Assembly: GCF_000019965.1 (NCBI RefSeq)
Contig: NC_010571.1
Location: 806,001-870,000, forward strand
Direction of reading: 5' to 3'
Length of the DNA stretch: 64,000 bases
DNA from: Opitutus terrae PB90-1
GTDB lineage: Bacteria > Verrucomicrobiota > Verrucomicrobiia > Opitutales > Opitutaceae
A program made the position numbers and the translations under genes. This document shows positions 32,032 to 39,695 of this stretch, one piece after another (the first letter of the stretch is position 1; each line of letters begins with the position of its first letter). The notes under the pieces were generated by a model, which did no database searches, had not been told where the DNA came from, and saw nothing but the letters and a program-made list of their open reading frames with translations.

Positions 32032-32105
32032 GCGGGTGTAGTTTAGTGGCAAAACTCCGCTCTTCCAAAGCGGTATCGTCGGTTCGATTCCGTCCACCCG
32101 CACCA
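32032..32105 (+). tRNA. tRNA-Gly (anticodon TCC)
   Basis: 74-nt cloverleaf: acceptor GCGGGTG/CACCCGC, short D-loop (TTTAGTGGCAAAA), anticodon stem CCGCT/AGCGG with loop CTTCCAA, and T-arm with GGTTCGATTCC. The 3' CCA is encoded at 32103-32105. Confidence 0.96.
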
Positions 32106-32306
32106 AGTTTCGCGCCCATCCGCAGCGGGCGCGCGCGGGCGCGGCGACGGTCCCGCCACCCGACCAATGCAGCGAACGATCGACCACCGAGCGAAAGCGG
32201 TCCACCGCCGACGCGGCGGAAGTGCTCCGGCCTCCGCCAGCAGACTGGGCTGGGACGGGAGTCTCGGCATCAGCGCTGCGTGCTCCGCAGCGGGAGCGGA
32301 TCCCCT

Positions 32307-33023
32307 GTGAATCTGATTCTTTTCGAACCGGCAGAAATCAACCGACCGCTCGCGGCAGGTGATCCGCGGGTGCGCCACGTTCTCGCGGTACTGCATCGTG
32401 CTGCAGGCGACGCTTTCGACGCCGGCATCATCAACGGTCCGCGCGGGAAGGCCCGGCTGCGGCCGCGGGCCGACGGTGACTATGATTGCGAATTCACGCC
32501 CACCGCGGAGCCACCACCCGCCGCTCCGATCGCTCTCGTGATCGGGCTGCCGCGACCCCAGACCGCTCGCGACATCCTCCGGGACGCGACCACCCTTGGC
32601 GTGCAGGCGCTCCATTTTGTCGCCACGGAGAAGGGCGATCCGAACTACGCGAGCAGTGCTCTCTGGCGCTCGGGCGAGTGGCGACGGCACGTGGTCATCG
32701 GCGCCGAGCAGGCGTTCTGCACGCGGCTGCCGGAAGTCACCCATGGCCGATCTCTCGCCGAGGTCGTCGCCGCGCTCATGCCCGGCGAGGCGCGGTTCGC
32801 GCTCGACAATTACGAAGCGGCACAACCGCTCGCGCGGAGCGAGATTGACGCACCGCGGGTGACGCTGGCGATCGGCGCCGAGCGCGGTTGGTCAACGCCG
32901 GAACGCGCGTTGCTTCGCCACCATGGATTCACTTTCGCGCACCTCGGCGAACGTGTACTGCGAACCGAAACGGCCTGCATCGCAGCCATCACGCTGGTGC
33001 GAGCCGCGCTCGGCGTCGCATAG
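32307..33023 (+). CDS. rsmE: 16S rRNA (uracil1498-N3)-methyltransferase
   Basis: 238 aa SPOUT-class enzyme that methylates U1498 of 16S rRNA. An N-terminal PUA-like domain (RVRHVLAVLHRAAGDAFDAG) precedes the knotted SPOUT domain. That domain has ALVIGLPRPQTARDILRDAT, LGVQALHFVATEK, and the SAM-binding knot TLAIGAERGWSTPER followed by LGERVLRTETA. The GTG start follows CGGGAGCGG, a reasonable ribosome-binding site. It lies 200 bases after tRNA-Gly and is convergent with rsmD. Confidence 0.93.
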   Translation: MNLILFEPAEINRPLAAGDPRVRHVLAVLHRAAGDAFDAGIINGPRGKARLRPRADGDYDCEFTPTAEPPPAAPIALVIGLPRPQTARDILRDATTLGVQALHFVATEKGDPNYASSALWRSGEWRRHVVIGAEQAFCTRLPEVTHGRSLAEVVAALMPGEARFALDNYEAAQPLARSEIDAPRVTLAIGAERGWSTPERALLRHHGFTFAHLGERVLRTETACIAAITLVRAALGVA

Positions 33024-33156: not shown

Positions 33157-33735
33157 TCACTTCGCGCTGGGGGCGGACCGGCGAAAAAACGCCACCGTGG
33201 GCTGGCGCGCACCCTTGCCGAGCCGCTTGAGACAGGTCCAGCCCGTCGGCGCGAGTTCGACTTCACCCGGCATCTCCATCACCACGAGCGCGTCGGGTTC
33301 ACCCGCAAGCACGTCCGTGAGCCGGGCAAACAGCGGCGCCGAAATTTCGGAAATCACCTCGTAGGGCGGATCGATGAAGACGAGACTCGGCACGCGACCT
33401 CCACCGATCGGCGCAGCCAACGCGTCCATCTGGAGCACGGTCAATCCGGTCGGCGCACGGCCCACGCTCTTGCACACCGCCGCGATGTTTTGGCGGATGG
33501 AGGCGACCGCCTTCGCATTTCTCTCCACGAACACACCACCAGCCGCGCCCCGGCTGACCGCCTCGAGCCCATACGCACCGCTGCCGGCAAACAGATCGAG
33601 GAACTGGGCTCCCACGACGCGTTCGCCCAGGCTCGAAAACACGGCCTGCCGCATGCCATCCGTCGCCGGGCGGACTGCGTCACCTTTAGGCACCGCCAGC
33701 GTGATGCCTCGCGCAACTCCGCCGGTTATGCGCAT
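33157..33735 (-). CDS. rsmD: 16S rRNA (guanine966-N2)-methyltransferase
   Basis: 192 aa class I methyltransferase for G966 of 16S rRNA. It begins MRITGGVARGITLAVPKGD, as RsmD does, then VRPATDGMRQAVFSSL, SAM motif I in FLDLFAGSGAYGLEAVSRGA, and the catalytic DPPY in VFIDPPYEVI. ATG 33735 is chosen because the conserved start MRITGG begins there. It is convergent with rsmE, which modifies the same rRNA. Confidence 0.94.
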   Translation of the reverse strand: MRITGGVARGITLAVPKGDAVRPATDGMRQAVFSSLGERVVGAQFLDLFAGSGAYGLEAVSRGAAGGVFVERNAKAVASIRQNIAAVCKSVGRAPTGLTVLQMDALAAPIGGGRVPSLVFIDPPYEVISEISAPLFARLTDVLAGEPDALVVMEMPGEVELAPTGWTCLKRLGKGARQPTVAFFRRSAPSAK

Positions 33736-34158
33736 GACGCGGGTAGTTTTGGCCCCCCAAGCTCCAAACACTTAGGGATGGCGGGTAAAAACGCGTTGTT
33801 TGTCATCATCGAATACCGGGCGAGGCGCCGAGCACGTCCGGCGTCATGTGATTCCGGCAGCGGTCGTTCTTCAATTCCGAAACCCGCGGCAAGTCCGGCG
33901 GCGGCGAGTCCGCATCCGGAAAGGCGCGCCAGGGGTCCGCGCGAGGGGTTTTCACCCCATCCCGTCGCGTCGAACTCTGGCATGCTGCACGTCACCAGTT
34001 AATTGGAACACTCCGCTTCGATTCCGGTTCAACATAGCATTTGCACCGGCGGCCGATTTTCCTACCACTTGATCCTTAACACATCGAACGAGCCGTGGTC
34101 GCCGACTCCTCCACGGACCCGATGCGCAACGGCGCGCACGTTCGCTAGACTACAACCC
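33736..34158. other. Intergenic region of about 420 bases, no gene recognised
   Basis: No frame here is convincing. It has only a small GGGGT/ACCCC hairpin at 33945-33958. It must carry the rsmD promoter and that of the WP-repeat/mla operon. I saw no clear -35/-10 pair. Confidence 0.4.
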
Positions 34159-35643
34159 ATGAGCTTCCTCCGCTTCATCGCGACTCTCGGCTTTGCCGGG
34201 GTGTGCGCTGCCGCGCATGCGGAGGAAAACACGTGGCCGGTGCGGGTGGACCAAACCGACGACGAAGGGGTGGTGCTTTCATCGCAGTGGATCGGCCCGC
34301 TCGTGTTCGAAAAACCGTCTGCGGAGCCCGGCCGGGTCGCCGGAGTTCGGCCGCTTTTCGCCCGCTGGACCACGCCGGCCGGCGACCTGCGCGAGACCAA
34401 CGTCCTCTATCCGGTCTTCACGTATCGCACGGATGGCACGAACTTTCGCTGGAGCGTCTTCCAGTTGATGAACCGCTCGAGCTCGCACGATCTCGCATCA
34501 AGCGAGCCGGCGACGACGCGCCACGATACGTTCGATGTGTGGCCGTTCTGGTTCTCGCGAGACACCGGATCTCCGGAAACATCCTATCGGGCGCTGTTCC
34601 CGATCGCAGGCACTCTCAAATCCCGCCTCGGCTACGACGAGCTGTCGTGGACCTTGTTTCCGCTCTATGGCCGCGCCGAGAAATCCGGCGCCGTGAGCAC
34701 GAGCACGCCGTGGCCGTTCATCAAGGTGACGCGCGGCACCGAGCAGGGGTTTGCGCTCTGGCCACTGTTCGGCCGGCGGGAGCGGCCGGGCGAATTCGAG
34801 CGCCAGTATTTCCTGTGGCCGCTGATCTGGAACAACACCCTCAGGCCGGCGGGCGACGCCGTGCACCCCGCCGCTCCACGGCGCGAGGTCGGTTTCCTGC
34901 CGTTTTACACCAGCGAAACCGACACCGGGTTCGTGAACCGCAGCTATGTGTGGCCGTTTTTTGGCTACACCGATCGGACGCAACCCATCCGCTATCACGA
35001 GACCCGCTACTTCTGGCCGTTTCTCGTTCAGGGGCACGGCGATGAACGAAAGGTGAACCGCTGGGGCCCGGTCTATACGCACTCGATCGTGAAGGGCACG
35101 GAAAAGACGTGGATCGCGTGGCCGATCTACCGCGAGAAGACCTGGTCCGATCCCGCGCTGCAGCACACGCAACGGCAGGTTCTCTATTTTCTTTACCGCT
35201 CGACCCAGCAGCGGAGCGCGACGAATCCGCAGGCGCCGATGGCCGAGAAGGCGCACCTCTGGCCGCTGATCAGCTCTTGGGACAACGGCGCCGGCCGGAA
35301 GCAGGTGCAGATCCCGAGCCCGCTAGAGGTGTTCTTCCCCGACAACGAGCGCGTGCGCGTGTCCTGGTCGCCGCTGTTCGCGCTCTACCGCTTCGATCAA
35401 ACCGCGCCCGACACCCAGCGACACGAGTTCCTCTGGGGGTTGTTGACGTGGCGGCGGGCGCCGCAACAGCGCGAGTTTCACCTCGGCCCGCTGTTCAGCG
35501 TCCGCGAACGCGCGGGCGAAAAACGCATCGCCTTCGGCAACGGGCTGCTCGCGTGGCAGCGCAGCGCGGCCACCGGCCGCTGGCGGTTCTTCTGGTTCGA
35601 TTTCCCGGCGAAAGAAAACAAGCTTCGGGCCGCGGCCCGGTGA
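34159..35643 (+). CDS. Exported WP-repeat protein of unknown function, upstream of mlaEFD
   Basis: 494 aa. A signal peptide opens it (SFLRFIATLGFAGVCAAAHA). The mature protein is a chain of short beta-like segments, each built around an aromatic-Pro core and spaced about 20-35 residues: VWPFWF, LFPIAG, LFPLYG, PWPFIK, LWPLFG, LWPLIW, FLPFYT, VWPFFG, FWPFLV, AWPIYR, LWPLIS and LGPLFS. Charged turns separate them. This suggests a beta-barrel or beta-solenoid in the periplasm or outer membrane. The stop codon is one base before the mlaE start, so it is almost certainly translated with the Mla-type lipid transporter. I do not know a named function. Confidence 0.75.
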   Translation: MSFLRFIATLGFAGVCAAAHAEENTWPVRVDQTDDEGVVLSSQWIGPLVFEKPSAEPGRVAGVRPLFARWTTPAGDLRETNVLYPVFTYRTDGTNFRWSVFQLMNRSSSHDLASSEPATTRHDTFDVWPFWFSRDTGSPETSYRALFPIAGTLKSRLGYDELSWTLFPLYGRAEKSGAVSTSTPWPFIKVTRGTEQGFALWPLFGRRERPGEFERQYFLWPLIWNNTLRPAGDAVHPAAPRREVGFLPFYTSETDTGFVNRSYVWPFFGYTDRTQPIRYHETRYFWPFLVQGHGDERKVNRWGPVYTHSIVKGTEKTWIAWPIYREKTWSDPALQHTQRQVLYFLYRSTQQRSATNPQAPMAEKAHLWPLISSWDNGAGRKQVQIPSPLEVFFPDNERVRVSWSPLFALYRFDQTAPDTQRHEFLWGLLTWRRAPQQREFHLGPLFSVRERAGEKRIAFGNGLLAWQRSAATGRWRFFWFDFPAKENKLRAAAR

Positions 35644-35644
35644 C

Positions 35645-36397
35645 ATGAAACAATTCCACGCCATCTTCGAGGGTATCGGCAGCACCGTGCTGCTGCTGGT
35701 GCGCAGCCTCTCGTTCATCGGCACGCTGCCACGTCAGCGCGCCCGGCTCATCGAGCAGTGCTTCACCATCGGCTACACCACCCTGCCGATCGTCGCGATC
35801 CTCAGCTTCTTCATCGGCAGCGTGCTCGCACTCCAGGCGGGCTACGCCATGCAGAACGTCGGCGCCAAGCAATACATCGGTTCGCTGGTCGGACTCTCCA
35901 TGGCTCGGGAACTCGGTCCCGTCATGGTCGCCATCCTGCTCGCCGGTCGCGTGGGCTCATCCATCGCTGCCGAACTCGCCTCGATGAAGGTCTACCAGGA
36001 AGTCGACGCGCTCGTCACGATGAACATTCCGCCCGAGCGAATGCTCGTGCTGCCGCGATTGATCGCGGTGCTGTTCATGATGCCGGTGTTGGTCATGATC
36101 GCCAACCTCGTCGGCTGGTTCGGCGGCGCGATCGTCGCGAAATACACCACCTTCATCTCGATCGATCCGCCCGCCTACTTCGCCGTGTTGCGCCGCTACA
36201 CGGAGTTCAAGGACGTGCTCAACGGGCTCATCAAGGCCGAGGTCTTCGGCTTCGGCGTCGTTCTGGTCTGCTGCAACATCGGGCTCAACACGCGTGGTGG
36301 CCCGCGCGAAATCGGCGCCGCCGTCACGCAGGCCGTGGTGACCTCGCTCATCCTCATCCTCGTGCTGAACTACTTCGTCACGAAAGCGCTCCTCTGA
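35645..36397 (+). CDS. mlaE: MlaE-type ABC transporter permease
   Basis: 250 aa inner-membrane permease of the MCE/Mla phospholipid transport system. It has an interfacial N-terminal helix and about five transmembrane helices, with the family hallmark ARELGPVMVAILLAGRVGSS and AELASMKVYQEVDAL (coupling helix toward MlaF), and the closing RGGPREIGAAVTQAVVTSLI. It starts one base after the WP-repeat gene and ends two bases before mlaF. The ATG follows CGGTGAC without a Shine-Dalgarno sequence, so translational coupling is likely. Confidence 0.94.
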   Translation: MKQFHAIFEGIGSTVLLLVRSLSFIGTLPRQRARLIEQCFTIGYTTLPIVAILSFFIGSVLALQAGYAMQNVGAKQYIGSLVGLSMARELGPVMVAILLAGRVGSSIAAELASMKVYQEVDALVTMNIPPERMLVLPRLIAVLFMMPVLVMIANLVGWFGGAIVAKYTTFISIDPPAYFAVLRRYTEFKDVLNGLIKAEVFGFGVVLVCCNIGLNTRGGPREIGAAVTQAVVTSLILILVLNYFVTKALL

Positions 36398-36399
36398 CC

Positions 36400-37212
36400 A
36401 TGGCTGACCGTTCTCCCAGTCTGACCCGGAACCCGTTCACGGCGGAGGAAAAGCCCGCCGTGAGCGTCGCCGTCGAACACCTGTCGAAAAGCTTCGGCGC
36501 GCTGCAGGTCCTCAAGGATGTCAGCTTCGCCGTCGAGCCGGGCGAGATCTTCGTGCTGATGGGCCCCAGCGGCTCGGGCAAGAGCGTGTTGCTGAAACAC
36601 ATCGTCGGACTCGAACTGCCCACCGCCGGCCGCGTGATGGTCGACAGCCACGACGCGAGTTCGGAACGTACGCGCGAGCAGATCCGGATGGCGCTGGTGT
36701 TCCAGGCTGGCGCGCTCTTCAACTCGCTCAGCGTTTACGACAACCTCGCGCTCTACCTGCGCGAGCACCAGGTGGCGAACGAGGGTGGCATCCGCGAGAA
36801 AGTGATGCGCGCGCTGCAGATTCTCTCGCTCGAAAACGCCGCTTCGAAGCTGCCCGCCGAACTCTCCGGCGGCATGAAGAAGCGCGTCGCCATCGCCCGC
36901 GCGCTCGTCATGGAGCCGCAGCTCATGCTCTACGACGAACCGACGAGCGAGCTCGATCCCGTGATGGGCGCGACCATCAGCGAAATCATCGCCACGCTGA
37001 AGGACGAGTTTCACGTTACCACGATCGTCGTATCGCACGACCGGGATCTCGCGCTGAGCATCGCCGATCGCGTCGGCATCCTGATGAACGGCCAGCTCAT
37101 TCACGTCAGCCCGCCTGCGGCGCTGCGTGATCCTCACGACCCGCGGATCGACGATTTCCTGAACCCCCAGGTCGATCTGAAGAACCCCCGCTTCAAGAAG
37201 CTCGAGATCTGA
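36400..37212 (+). CDS. mlaF: MlaF-type ABC transporter ATP-binding protein
   Basis: 270 aa cytoplasmic ATPase. Walker A is MGPSGSGKSVLLKHIVGLE, the Q-loop is in ALVFQAGALFNSLSVYDN, the ABC signature LSGGMKKRVAIARALVMEP, Walker B LMLYDEPTSELDP and the switch histidine in VVSHDR. The GALFNSLSVYDN and SGGMKKR variants are typical of the MCE/Mla branch. It powers lipid extraction or insertion via MlaE and MlaD. It follows mlaE after two bases. Confidence 0.95.
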   Translation: MADRSPSLTRNPFTAEEKPAVSVAVEHLSKSFGALQVLKDVSFAVEPGEIFVLMGPSGSGKSVLLKHIVGLELPTAGRVMVDSHDASSERTREQIRMALVFQAGALFNSLSVYDNLALYLREHQVANEGGIREKVMRALQILSLENAASKLPAELSGGMKKRVAIARALVMEPQLMLYDEPTSELDPVMGATISEIIATLKDEFHVTTIVVSHDRDLALSIADRVGILMNGQLIHVSPPAALRDPHDPRIDDFLNPQVDLKNPRFKKLEI

Positions 37213-37254
37213 ACACGCTTTCGCACCGCACCTTTCGATTCGGAGACCTGCCCT

Positions 37255-38253
37255 ATGAACACCGCACAACAAACCGCCCGCGTCGGGCTCTTTTTCGTCC
37301 TCGGCCTCGCTTTGACCTGGGTTACTTTCGAGACCCTCAGCGGCGGCAAGATCTTTCGGGAAGACGGCTACACGCTCATTGCTCCGTTCGGCTCGTTGAA
37401 AGAGCTGAAGAATGGCGACGAGGTCCGGATGGCCGGCGTGAAGATCGGCGTCGTCGAGCGCACCCGTTTGAACCCCGAGAAACGACGCGCCGAGGCGATC
37501 CTGCGGATCAACACTGACTCGACGATCCCGAGCGACGCCGTCGCCTCCATCTCGATGTCCGGGCTGATCGGCACGAACTACATCGCCGTCGATCTCGGCA
37601 CCCCGAGTGCGCCGGTGCTGCGGCCGGGTGATGAAATCCGCACGCGCAACACCGCCGATTTCAACTCGATCATGAGCGACCTCGGCAATCTCGGCCAGAA
37701 ACTCGAGGGCGCGCTGGGCGCGTTCGGCAAGGCCATGAGCGGCGAGGAAGGCCAGCCCGGTTTGTTCCAGAAGCTCGACCGGCTCGTGACCGAAAACCAG
37801 GAGAAGGTCACCGCGACGATGAGCAATCTCCAGGACATCACCGCCAAGGTGAACCAGGGGCAGGGCACGCTCGGCAAGCTCGTCAACGATCCCGCGCTCC
37901 ATGACGAGCTGCTTGCGGCGGTGCAGGACATCAAGGGTGCCGCTGCTGGCGCCAAGGATTTCATGGCCAACGCGCAGGCCATCGTCGACCAGGTGAAATC
38001 CGGCAAGGGCACGATCGGCGCGCTCGTCTACGACGAAAACGCCGCGAGCGACCTCAAGGCCACGATGGCGAACTTCCGCTCGGTGTCCGACAAGATCGCC
38101 AAGGGCGAAGGCACGCTCGGCAAGCTAATCCGTGACGACCAGCTCTACCAGAGCGCACAGTCGACGCTAAAGAAGGCCGACCGCGCGCTCGACGGCATGA
38201 GCGACTCCGGCCCGATCACCGCCGTCGGCGTCGTCGCGAATTCGCTGTTCTGA
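37255..38253 (+). CDS. mlaD: MlaD-type MCE-domain lipid-binding protein
   Basis: 332 aa. One N-terminal transmembrane helix (ARVGLFFVLGLALTWVTFE) is followed by an MCE domain (YTLIAPFGSLKELKNGDEVR, AGVKIGVVERTRL, ISMSGLIGTNYIAVDLG). A long helical tail has three degenerate repeats of about 50 residues led by GQGTLGKLVND, GKGTIGALVYDE and GEGTLGKLIRDD. MCE hexamers form the lipid channel across the periplasm; the extended helical tail may span towards the outer membrane. It is the last gene of the operon and is followed by a hairpin with a T-rich tail. Confidence 0.93.
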   Translation: MNTAQQTARVGLFFVLGLALTWVTFETLSGGKIFREDGYTLIAPFGSLKELKNGDEVRMAGVKIGVVERTRLNPEKRRAEAILRINTDSTIPSDAVASISMSGLIGTNYIAVDLGTPSAPVLRPGDEIRTRNTADFNSIMSDLGNLGQKLEGALGAFGKAMSGEEGQPGLFQKLDRLVTENQEKVTATMSNLQDITAKVNQGQGTLGKLVNDPALHDELLAAVQDIKGAAAGAKDFMANAQAIVDQVKSGKGTIGALVYDENAASDLKATMANFRSVSDKIAKGEGTLGKLIRDDQLYQSAQSTLKKADRALDGMSDSGPITAVGVVANSLF

Positions 38254-38468: not shown

Positions 38469-39695
38469 CTACACCTTCGGACCGCCCTGCGCGTAATAGC
38501 GCGCGCGCAGCCGCAGCCCGTTGAGCCGGATGAACCCGGTGGCGTCGCTCTGGTTGTACCAGCTCCTCACGCCTTCCATCGAGGCGACCTTCATGTCGTA
38601 GAGCGAATACTTCGACTTCCGGCCGCAGGTGATGATGTTGCCCTTGTAGAGCTTCAGCCGGACCGTGCCGGTGACGTTCTCCTGGCTCTTGTCGACCAGC
38701 GCCTGAAGCGCCTCGCGTTCCGGGGCGAACCAGAATCCGTAGTAAACCAGCTCGGCATACTTCGGGATCAGCGAGTCGCGCAGGTGCATGACCTCGCGAT
38801 CCATCGTCAGCGATTCGATCTGCCGGTGGCCCTGCATCAGGATCGTGCCACCCGGCGTCTCGTAGACGCCACGGGACTTCATGCCGACGAAACGGTTCTC
38901 CACCAAGTCGACCCGGCCGATGCCGTGCTTGCCGCCGAGCTTGTTGAGCGCCTTCAACACGCCCGCGGGCGAGAGCTTTTTGCCGTTCACCGCGACGCAG
39001 TTGCCCTTCACGAATTCGAGTTCGACGTATTCCGCCTTGTTGGGCGCGTCCTCGGGCGAGACCGAGAGTTTGAACATGCCCTTGTTCTCGGGCGTGGTCG
39101 GGTCGAACCACGGGTCCTCGAGGATGCCCGCCTCGTAGGAGATATGCAGGAGATTGCGATCCATCGAATACGGCTTCTTGAGCGACGCCTCGACCGGAAT
39201 CTTGTGCTCCTGGCAGTAGGCGATCATCTCCGCGCGGCCCGGGAACTGCTCGCGGAATTTCTCGATCTTCCACGGCGCCACAATCTGCAGCTTCGGATCG
39301 AGCGCCATGTACGTCAGCTCGAACCGGCACTGGTCGTTGCCCTTGCCGGTGGCGCCGTGCGCGACCGTGTCAGCTTTCTCACGCTTCGCGATCTCGACCT
39401 GCGCCTTCGCGATCAACGGACGCGCGATGGACGTGCCGAGGTAATACTGACCCTCGTAGATCGCGTTCGCACGGATCATCGGGTAAATGAAGTCGCGCGC
39501 GAATTCCTCCACCAGATCCAGCGTGTAGTGTTTCGACGCGCCGGTCTTGCGGGCCTTCTGCGGCAGGCCTTTTAGCTCCTCCTCCTGCCCGATGTCCGCC
39601 GCGAAGGTGACGATCTCCGCGTCGTAGGTTTCCCGGAGCCACTTGACGATGACCGACGTGTCGAGACCGCCGGAGTATGCGAGGACGATTTTCAT
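38469..39695 (-). CDS. argG: Argininosuccinate synthase
   Basis: 408 aa. It joins citrulline and aspartate using ATP in arginine synthesis. The PP-loop is [19 protein letters not shown] at the N-terminus, followed by the substrate-binding [18 protein letters not shown] and [18 protein letters not shown] segments. ATG at 39695 gives normal length. It is read after argF, 72 bases apart, and both belong to the run argB-argD-argF-argG on the minus strand. argH is not in the window. Confidence 0.97.

Follow-up and report, generated by a model that had tools for sequence, protein, structure and literature searches.

The route by which an MlaEFD lipid transporter without MlaA and MlaC reaches the outer membrane is not settled, and an operon of Opitutus terrae PB90-1 bears on this question. 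It lies in a stretch of 64,000 nucleotides (positions 806,001 to 870,000 of contig NC_010571.1), which is called the window here; gene coordinates refer to it. The first gene of the operon (34159..35643, + strand) runs from an ATG start to a stop codon and encodes an exported protein of 494 amino acids, for which the name WP protein was coined in this analysis. It is followed on the same strand by the genes for the permease MlaE (35645..36397), the ATPase MlaF (36400..37212), and a long form of MlaD with 332 amino acids (37255..38253). The spacers of 1, 2, and 42 bases, respectively, are those given in a preliminary description of this DNA. We propose that the WP protein is probably an exported accessory subunit dedicated to a distinct MlaEFD system with a long MlaD, and that WP and the long MlaD together take the envelope-side place of MlaC and MlaA. 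WP represents a conserved, unannotated gene family and is a natural candidate partner of MlaEFD in the Verrucomicrobiota. Its coupling to the transporter is shown by comparative evidence, which also makes a replacement of the missing components the most likely reading, and contacts of WP with MlaD, the membrane, and lipid are what we infer in addition.

Linkage of WP to MlaE

The presence of WP was scored in 200 genomes of the family of O. terrae with a single query at E 1e-3. For 387 phylum genomes, a profile built from 31 members was applied at E 1e-5, and scoring was confined to the few best candidates of a first look. Because calls of absence rest on these thresholds, distant copies may have been missed. 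WP was found in 138 of the 200 family genomes; a further genome (G012) matched with 19 bits, had no profile match, and was left out of the 139 initial matches. MlaE of the type present in O. terrae, called at E 1e-55, was detected in 134 family genomes, and all 134 also contained WP. In 133 of these 134 pairs, WP was the first gene and mlaE was adjacent downstream on the same strand, the exception being G141, with partial matches on two contigs. Four genomes had WP and no MlaE at the threshold applied. In G185 the gene was present in two pieces (L021), G172 and G199 contained decayed copies with stop codons, and G194 was not explained. The G172 sequence, from a genome with both WP and MlaA, had stops in WP, MlaA, and the WP-type MlaE, and the G199 copy of WP had in-frame stops; both cases represent either decayed operons or poor sequence quality.

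Named genome contigs gave the same picture. A search found 170 relatives, of which 80 were kept; their titles named Verrucomicrobia, Opitutia/Opitutae, or individual genera, which we take to be Opitutaceae. MlaE was encoded directly downstream of WP in all 80 loci, in 79 of them within 300 bases. The remaining distance was 355 bases (L105), and the WP of this locus starts like that of L021. As some genomes occur in both sets, the family and the named-contig counts are not independent. In one locus (L034:2633-5227), a WP lacking its last strands continues in frame into MlaE, which may be a fusion that exists in nature or an artefact caused by a deletion.

The WP profile matched 170 of the 387 phylum genomes. 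Among the matches listed, 39 loci were chosen for score and family spread, 35 of them outside the class (a fortieth, L225, was a placeholder of 100 bases and was left out). In 32 of these 39 loci mlaE stood beside WP, including one (L208/L263) with an intervening gene; there, a gene for an MFS transporter on the opposite strand lies between WP and mlaE (L263:1091-2410, genome G505). No WP gene was found in plasmids. In a tree of MlaE sequences, the WP-linked proteins formed two groups separated by a clade of N-terminally extended MlaE proteins, with long branches; the tree is compatible with a single origin of WP-linked MlaE as well as with more than one. In summary, linkage of WP and mlaE in the family is nearly absolute. 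The preliminary description had coupled WP to the transporter and had suggested a synteny survey, with homologues rarely adjacent to mla genes as the contrary outcome; the survey clearly did not give that outcome, and the coupling is supported.

Distribution of MlaA and MlaC and length of MlaD

The transporter genes were identified by Pfam matches to MlaE (E 3.2e-73), ABC_tran (E 3.9e-34), and MlaD (E 2.8e-17). MlaE also scored above the cut-off of TIGR00056. The NCBIfam models of the E. coli-type MlaE, MlaF, and MlaD matched the proteins of the operon as well, all of them below cut-off. The preliminary description had noted that genes for MlaA, MlaC, and MlaB are missing. For MlaA (PF04333) and MlaC (PF05494) this was extended to the whole genome, a single contig of 5,957,605 bases, which yielded no match to either family at E 1e-3, with positive results for the E. 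coli and Caulobacter controls. For MlaB it stood for the operon only. No STAS gene was found within WP-mlaEFD, but other sites of the genome gave four STAS_2 matches (two over cut-off, not tied to mla), so that the absence of MlaB is a local one.

MlaA was present in 61 of the 200 family genomes and MlaC, over cut-off, also in 61, with 60 genomes in common. WP and MlaA largely excluded each other. In the family, 128 genomes contained only WP, 51 only MlaA, 10 both, and 11 neither (Fisher p 1.6e-26, ancestry ignored); for the 387 genomes of the phylum, the respective numbers were 153, 135, 17, and 82 (p 1.9e-27, again ignoring ancestry). The 11 family genomes with neither gene had no close MlaE; nine had only a distant one, and two had no match at E 1e-10. 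Both states occurred even within the genus of O. terrae (g1), one member of which, G003, carries MlaA and MlaC. In distant Verrucomicrobiota, as in L264:2325-4748, MlaA was often part of open frames of 600-880 amino acids. The only scanned frame with an MlaA match also had a weak match to Hydrolase_4 (an alpha/beta-hydrolase family) behind MlaA, below cut-off, and possibly encodes a fusion of MlaA with a lipase.

The genomic surroundings of the two operon types were also compared. In O. terrae, the WP operon is preceded by a divergent gene with a PF03602 domain (33157..33771, - strand), which we take to be rsmD-like and which is a landmark common to both operon types. A second landmark is a PF04452 gene (32046..33023, + strand), presumably rsmE-like. 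The downstream neighbour is argG (38469..39695, - strand), and because rsmD is divergent and argG convergent, WP-mlaE-mlaF-mlaD look like one isolated unit. A scan for sigma-70 promoters gave 0 sites and was uninformative. The corresponding genes of G003 are, in sequence, rsmE, rsmD in reverse orientation, a gene of the metallo-beta-lactamase fold, and then mlaE, mlaF, mlaD, mlaC, and mlaA. RsmD was encoded in 71 of the 80 named WP loci, divergently every time and in 68 cases within 1.5 kb upstream. Five of the nine loci without it had upstream room and four were too short. RsmD was also found in 13 of 20 more divergent WP loci of the family, in 7 of 15 MlaA-type loci (8-15 kb), in either orientation, and beside WP in only 2 of the 39 chosen phylum loci. 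In G024, which has both systems, the MlaA-type operon is the one between argG and the rsmD/rsmE matches (L286). As both operon types often share the rsmD neighbourhood, it looks as if, at least in a part of the family, one operon has taken over approximately the site of the other. The family also provides a natural experiment, in that relatives differ in which of the two operons they carry, in many cases close to the same rsmD gene.

The two operon types also differed in MlaD. Lengths were counted from the position at which the MlaD profile match begins, and one locus whose MlaE had no type assigned (MlaD of 332 amino acids) was left out. The median length of WP-linked MlaD was 330 residues (n=117, range 252-361), whereas MlaD proteins without WP had 147-175 residues in 16 of 17 loci, the exception being L080 with 313. 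For the O. terrae protein, the AlphaFold2 model contained a transmembrane helix (residues 4-28), an MCE domain (about 38-113), and a helical tail (136-331). The model had a predicted local distance difference test score (pLDDT) of 67 and a predicted template modelling score (pTM) of 0.36; it was confident mainly in the transmembrane and MCE parts and low in the tail. The hydrophobic C-terminal tip (residues 318-332; 38206..38250, + strand) is conserved among MlaD proteins linked to WP. All 45 WP-linked MlaD proteins ended in a hydrophobic segment whose last residue was Phe in 41 and Leu in 4 cases, and none of the 17 proteins without WP had such an end, and P320, A323, G325, L331, and F332 were invariant across 68 sequences. 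Short MlaD proteins together with MlaA and MlaC are common in the family of O. terrae, whereas the accessible text of PMC10665443 restricts short MlaD to Proteobacteria.

Several observations weigh against replacement by a dedicated partner. The exclusion is not strict, because some genomes carry both WP and MlaA (10/200 in the family, 17/387 in the phylum), and one of the two systems is not always needed, because genomes with neither exist (11/200 and 82/387). No RsmD was seen in 8 of the 15 MlaA-type loci. In 16 of the 17 MlaD proteins without WP, a hydrophobic stretch (FAFG) is present some residues before the polar end. For MORN proteins, which also consist of beta-strand repeats, lipid binding had been presumed, but it was not seen in the case that was tested (PMC7725318, according to the part of the article available). 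Furthermore, a shared operon and shared inheritance would fit a regulator or an assembly factor, too. WP might serve to assemble or regulate MlaEFD, or it might have a different task in the envelope and be co-inherited with the transporter. Operon position alone cannot discriminate here, and WP was away from mlaE in 7 of the 39 chosen phylum loci (L198, L199, L202, L210, L212, L216, and L223, from six genomes). However, five of these six genomes encode an MlaE of the WP-associated clade elsewhere (L235, L238, L246, L249, and L256), and a role as partner is favoured by the exclusion of MlaA and MlaC, by the surroundings that both operon types often have in common, and by the change in MlaD length. 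We therefore regard an assembly, regulatory, or unrelated function as rather improbable. The suggestion of the preliminary description that WP stands in for a missing partner is supported by the exclusion in most genomes, the shared rsmD gene, and the contrast of long and short MlaD.

Predicted fold of the WP protein

The WP protein, which the preliminary description had called a signal-peptide protein, starts with a putative signal peptide of about 21 residues (34159..34221, + strand). Judged by eye, it is of the Sec type and without a lipobox; the structural model has a helix at residues 2-13 and low pLDDT at 13-17. Lipobox patterns at the end of the signal peptide were present in 4 of 39 distant homologues (L198, L199, L202, and L222), the first three of which are not linked to mla. 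By eye, four mla-linked distant homologues (L196, L218, L219, and L227) had lipoprotein-like starts, and L192 fitted the pattern only through a Cys inside the hydrophobic stretch. Among 130 closer WP loci, 12 had a pattern match somewhere near the start.

At least 12 aromatic-Pro segments had been proposed, and 14 aromatic-Pro dipeptides were counted in the mature protein, compared with a mean of 6.1 and a maximum of 15 in 5000 shuffled sequences, so that the number lies within the shuffle range. The nine Trp-Pro dipeptides exceeded the shuffled values (mean 2.0, maximum 8), as did the autocorrelation of hydrophobicity at a period of 18-21 residues (0.199 versus a maximum of 0.185 in 2000 shuffles). 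An alignment of the 31 members had 37 invariant columns, 29 of which were Trp, Pro, or Gly. Neither the WP protein, nor the 31 members, nor their profile matched Pfam, NCBIfam, or PDB sequences; stray Pfam and NCBIfam matches of E 0.07-0.17 concerned one member each. Specifically, the 31 members had no Pfam match to TCP10 or MORN at E 1, and WP had none to ABC_trans_aux (PF03886) or any other family. AsmA/TamB/YhdP-type proteins gave no Pfam match either, and their lack among the fold-search results excludes nothing. In the open-licence literature, as far as its text was accessible, no report of the WP protein was found.

A structure prediction of WP alone had been recommended, and the AlphaFold2 model (80 sequences) was confident and all-beta, with a mean pLDDT of 90.8 and a pTM of 0.80. 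Residues 22-480 (34222..35598, + strand) contained 45 strands by DSSP, with lengths of 4-8 and a mean of 5.8 residues, connected mostly by short turns, which we read as one antiparallel meander. Most Pro turns follow one another at distances of 16-21 residues, but some gaps measure 27-47. Around 26 conserved Pro columns, 87% of the residues at +1 and 74% at -2 were hydrophobic, and about half of those 6-7 positions from the Pro were charged or amides. Judged from the sequence and the DSSP strands alone, the ribbon looks greasy and aromatic along the Pro-turn edge and polar or charged along the other.

The best VIA match was the TCP10 domain of CPAP (Z 10.8 over 178 residues, root-mean-square deviation 8.6, 5% identity, partial coverage), followed by engineered OspA sheets (Z about 8) and by porins, ushers, and LptD (about 5-7). 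Foldseek returned three matches at E <=0.001 (IFT-A, Wnt-complex, and teneurin chains), all with TM-scores of at most 0.14 on query length. The matches support a single-layer meander in the predicted model, not a relationship. The preliminary description had envisaged a beta-barrel or a solenoid. A solenoid is unlikely for the model, as short turns link most of the strands and the folds closest to it, TCP10 and OspA, are meanders. A transmembrane barrel was rejected, because strands of this length are too short to cross a membrane.

The corresponding functional proposal, that WP is a transmembrane outer-membrane barrel and a stand-alone counterpart of the barrel that forms part of MlaD in Veillonella, has some attractions. 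The protein is exported and predicted to be all-beta, it has weak matches to the walls of porins, ushers, and LptD, and in the accessible text of PMC10665443 the fused barrel is absent from the MlaD proteins of the PVC and FCB groups in a set of 1083 genomes. However, in addition to the short strands, the hydrophobicity is at the turns of one edge and not in a central belt, and some distant homologues start with lipoprotein-like signals. We consider this proposal highly improbable.

The match to TCP10 raises another explanation, namely that WP is a scaffold or tether that anchors or stabilizes the MlaD needle by protein-protein contacts and never touches lipid. One edge of the freestanding TCP10 meander binds a proline-rich peptide (PMC3776556, in the portion that is accessible). 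The same portion describes TCP10 as hydrated on both of its faces and without a hydrophobic core, whereas the turn edge of WP is strongly hydrophobic, and a fold match of 5% identity shows no function. We consider a pure scaffold unlikely.

The hydrophobic edge could also be taken further. WP itself might be the lipid conduit, an open ribbon of about 45 strands with an uninterrupted aromatic-Pro edge, along which acyl chains would pass between MlaD and the outer membrane. With a strand spacing of 4.7-4.8 A, the ribbon would be about 20 nm long if extended. If true, lipids would cross the envelope by a kind of path that differs from the MlaC shuttle, the MCE tube, and the AsmA/TamB groove. We regard the conduit as doubtful, to about the same degree as the scaffold.

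The accessory subunit and known systems

In the arrangement that we favour, with WP as an accessory subunit, MlaD would assemble into a hexameric tube like those of known MCE proteins, and its helical tail would reach towards the outer membrane. The WP ribbon would be located at or near the outer membrane, where it would hold the tip of MlaD and could offer its greasy edge to lipid for hand-over. Transport would be driven by ATP through MlaEF, and its direction may be retrograde by analogy with E. coli.

The system has the MlaE permease, the ATPase, and the MCE-domain MlaD in common with canonical Mla (MlaFEDB, MlaC, and MlaA) and, within the family, often the chromosomal neighbourhood. In contrast to it, O. 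terrae lacks MlaA and MlaC in the genome and MlaB in the operon, its MlaD is about twice as long, and WP is present instead. The minimal MlaEFD of Veillonella parvula (PMC10665443, available portion) likewise combines the absence of MlaA and MlaC with a long MlaD that has a helical tail. That MlaD ends in a barrel, and the same text allows for as yet unidentified proteins in the folding of the barrel. In the O. terrae model, however, no C-terminal barrel was seen, the chain being helical from residue 136 on in a tail of low confidence, and WP is encoded by a separate gene.

As proposed here for WP, the Pqi system pairs an MCE tube with a separate envelope protein, its outer-membrane lipoprotein PqiC (PMC10897342, as far as the text is accessible). 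In contrast to Pqi, WP has no ABC_trans_aux match, MlaD has a single MCE stretch, and the operon has no PqiA-like gene. A second MlaE operon is present in O. terrae outside the window, at about 5.94 Mb (C1; L261:1145-5065). It encodes an N-terminally extended MlaE, an ATPase, an MCE protein, and a PqiC-type ABC_trans_aux lipoprotein. The extension of about 160 residues has no Pfam match; as no STAS domain was detected at E 0.01 in the O. terrae copy, an initial label as STAS-fused was dropped. Two MCE transporters are therefore encoded in the genome, each of them accompanied by a non-MCE envelope gene of its own, and a partner gene beside the transporter is a pattern in this genome.

With regard to the fold, the strands predicted for WP would fit the single-layer antiparallel meander of hairpins seen in the TCP10 domain of CPAP and the engineered OspA sheets. 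WP differs from these proteins in that there is no sequence relation, about twice as many strands are predicted, and one edge is hydrophobic. In 2013, the authors of the TCP10 structure regarded its 20 strands as unique among natural proteins to their knowledge (PMC3776556, accessible text). If the prediction of a freestanding meander of about 45 strands is true, the fold of the WP protein would be rare.

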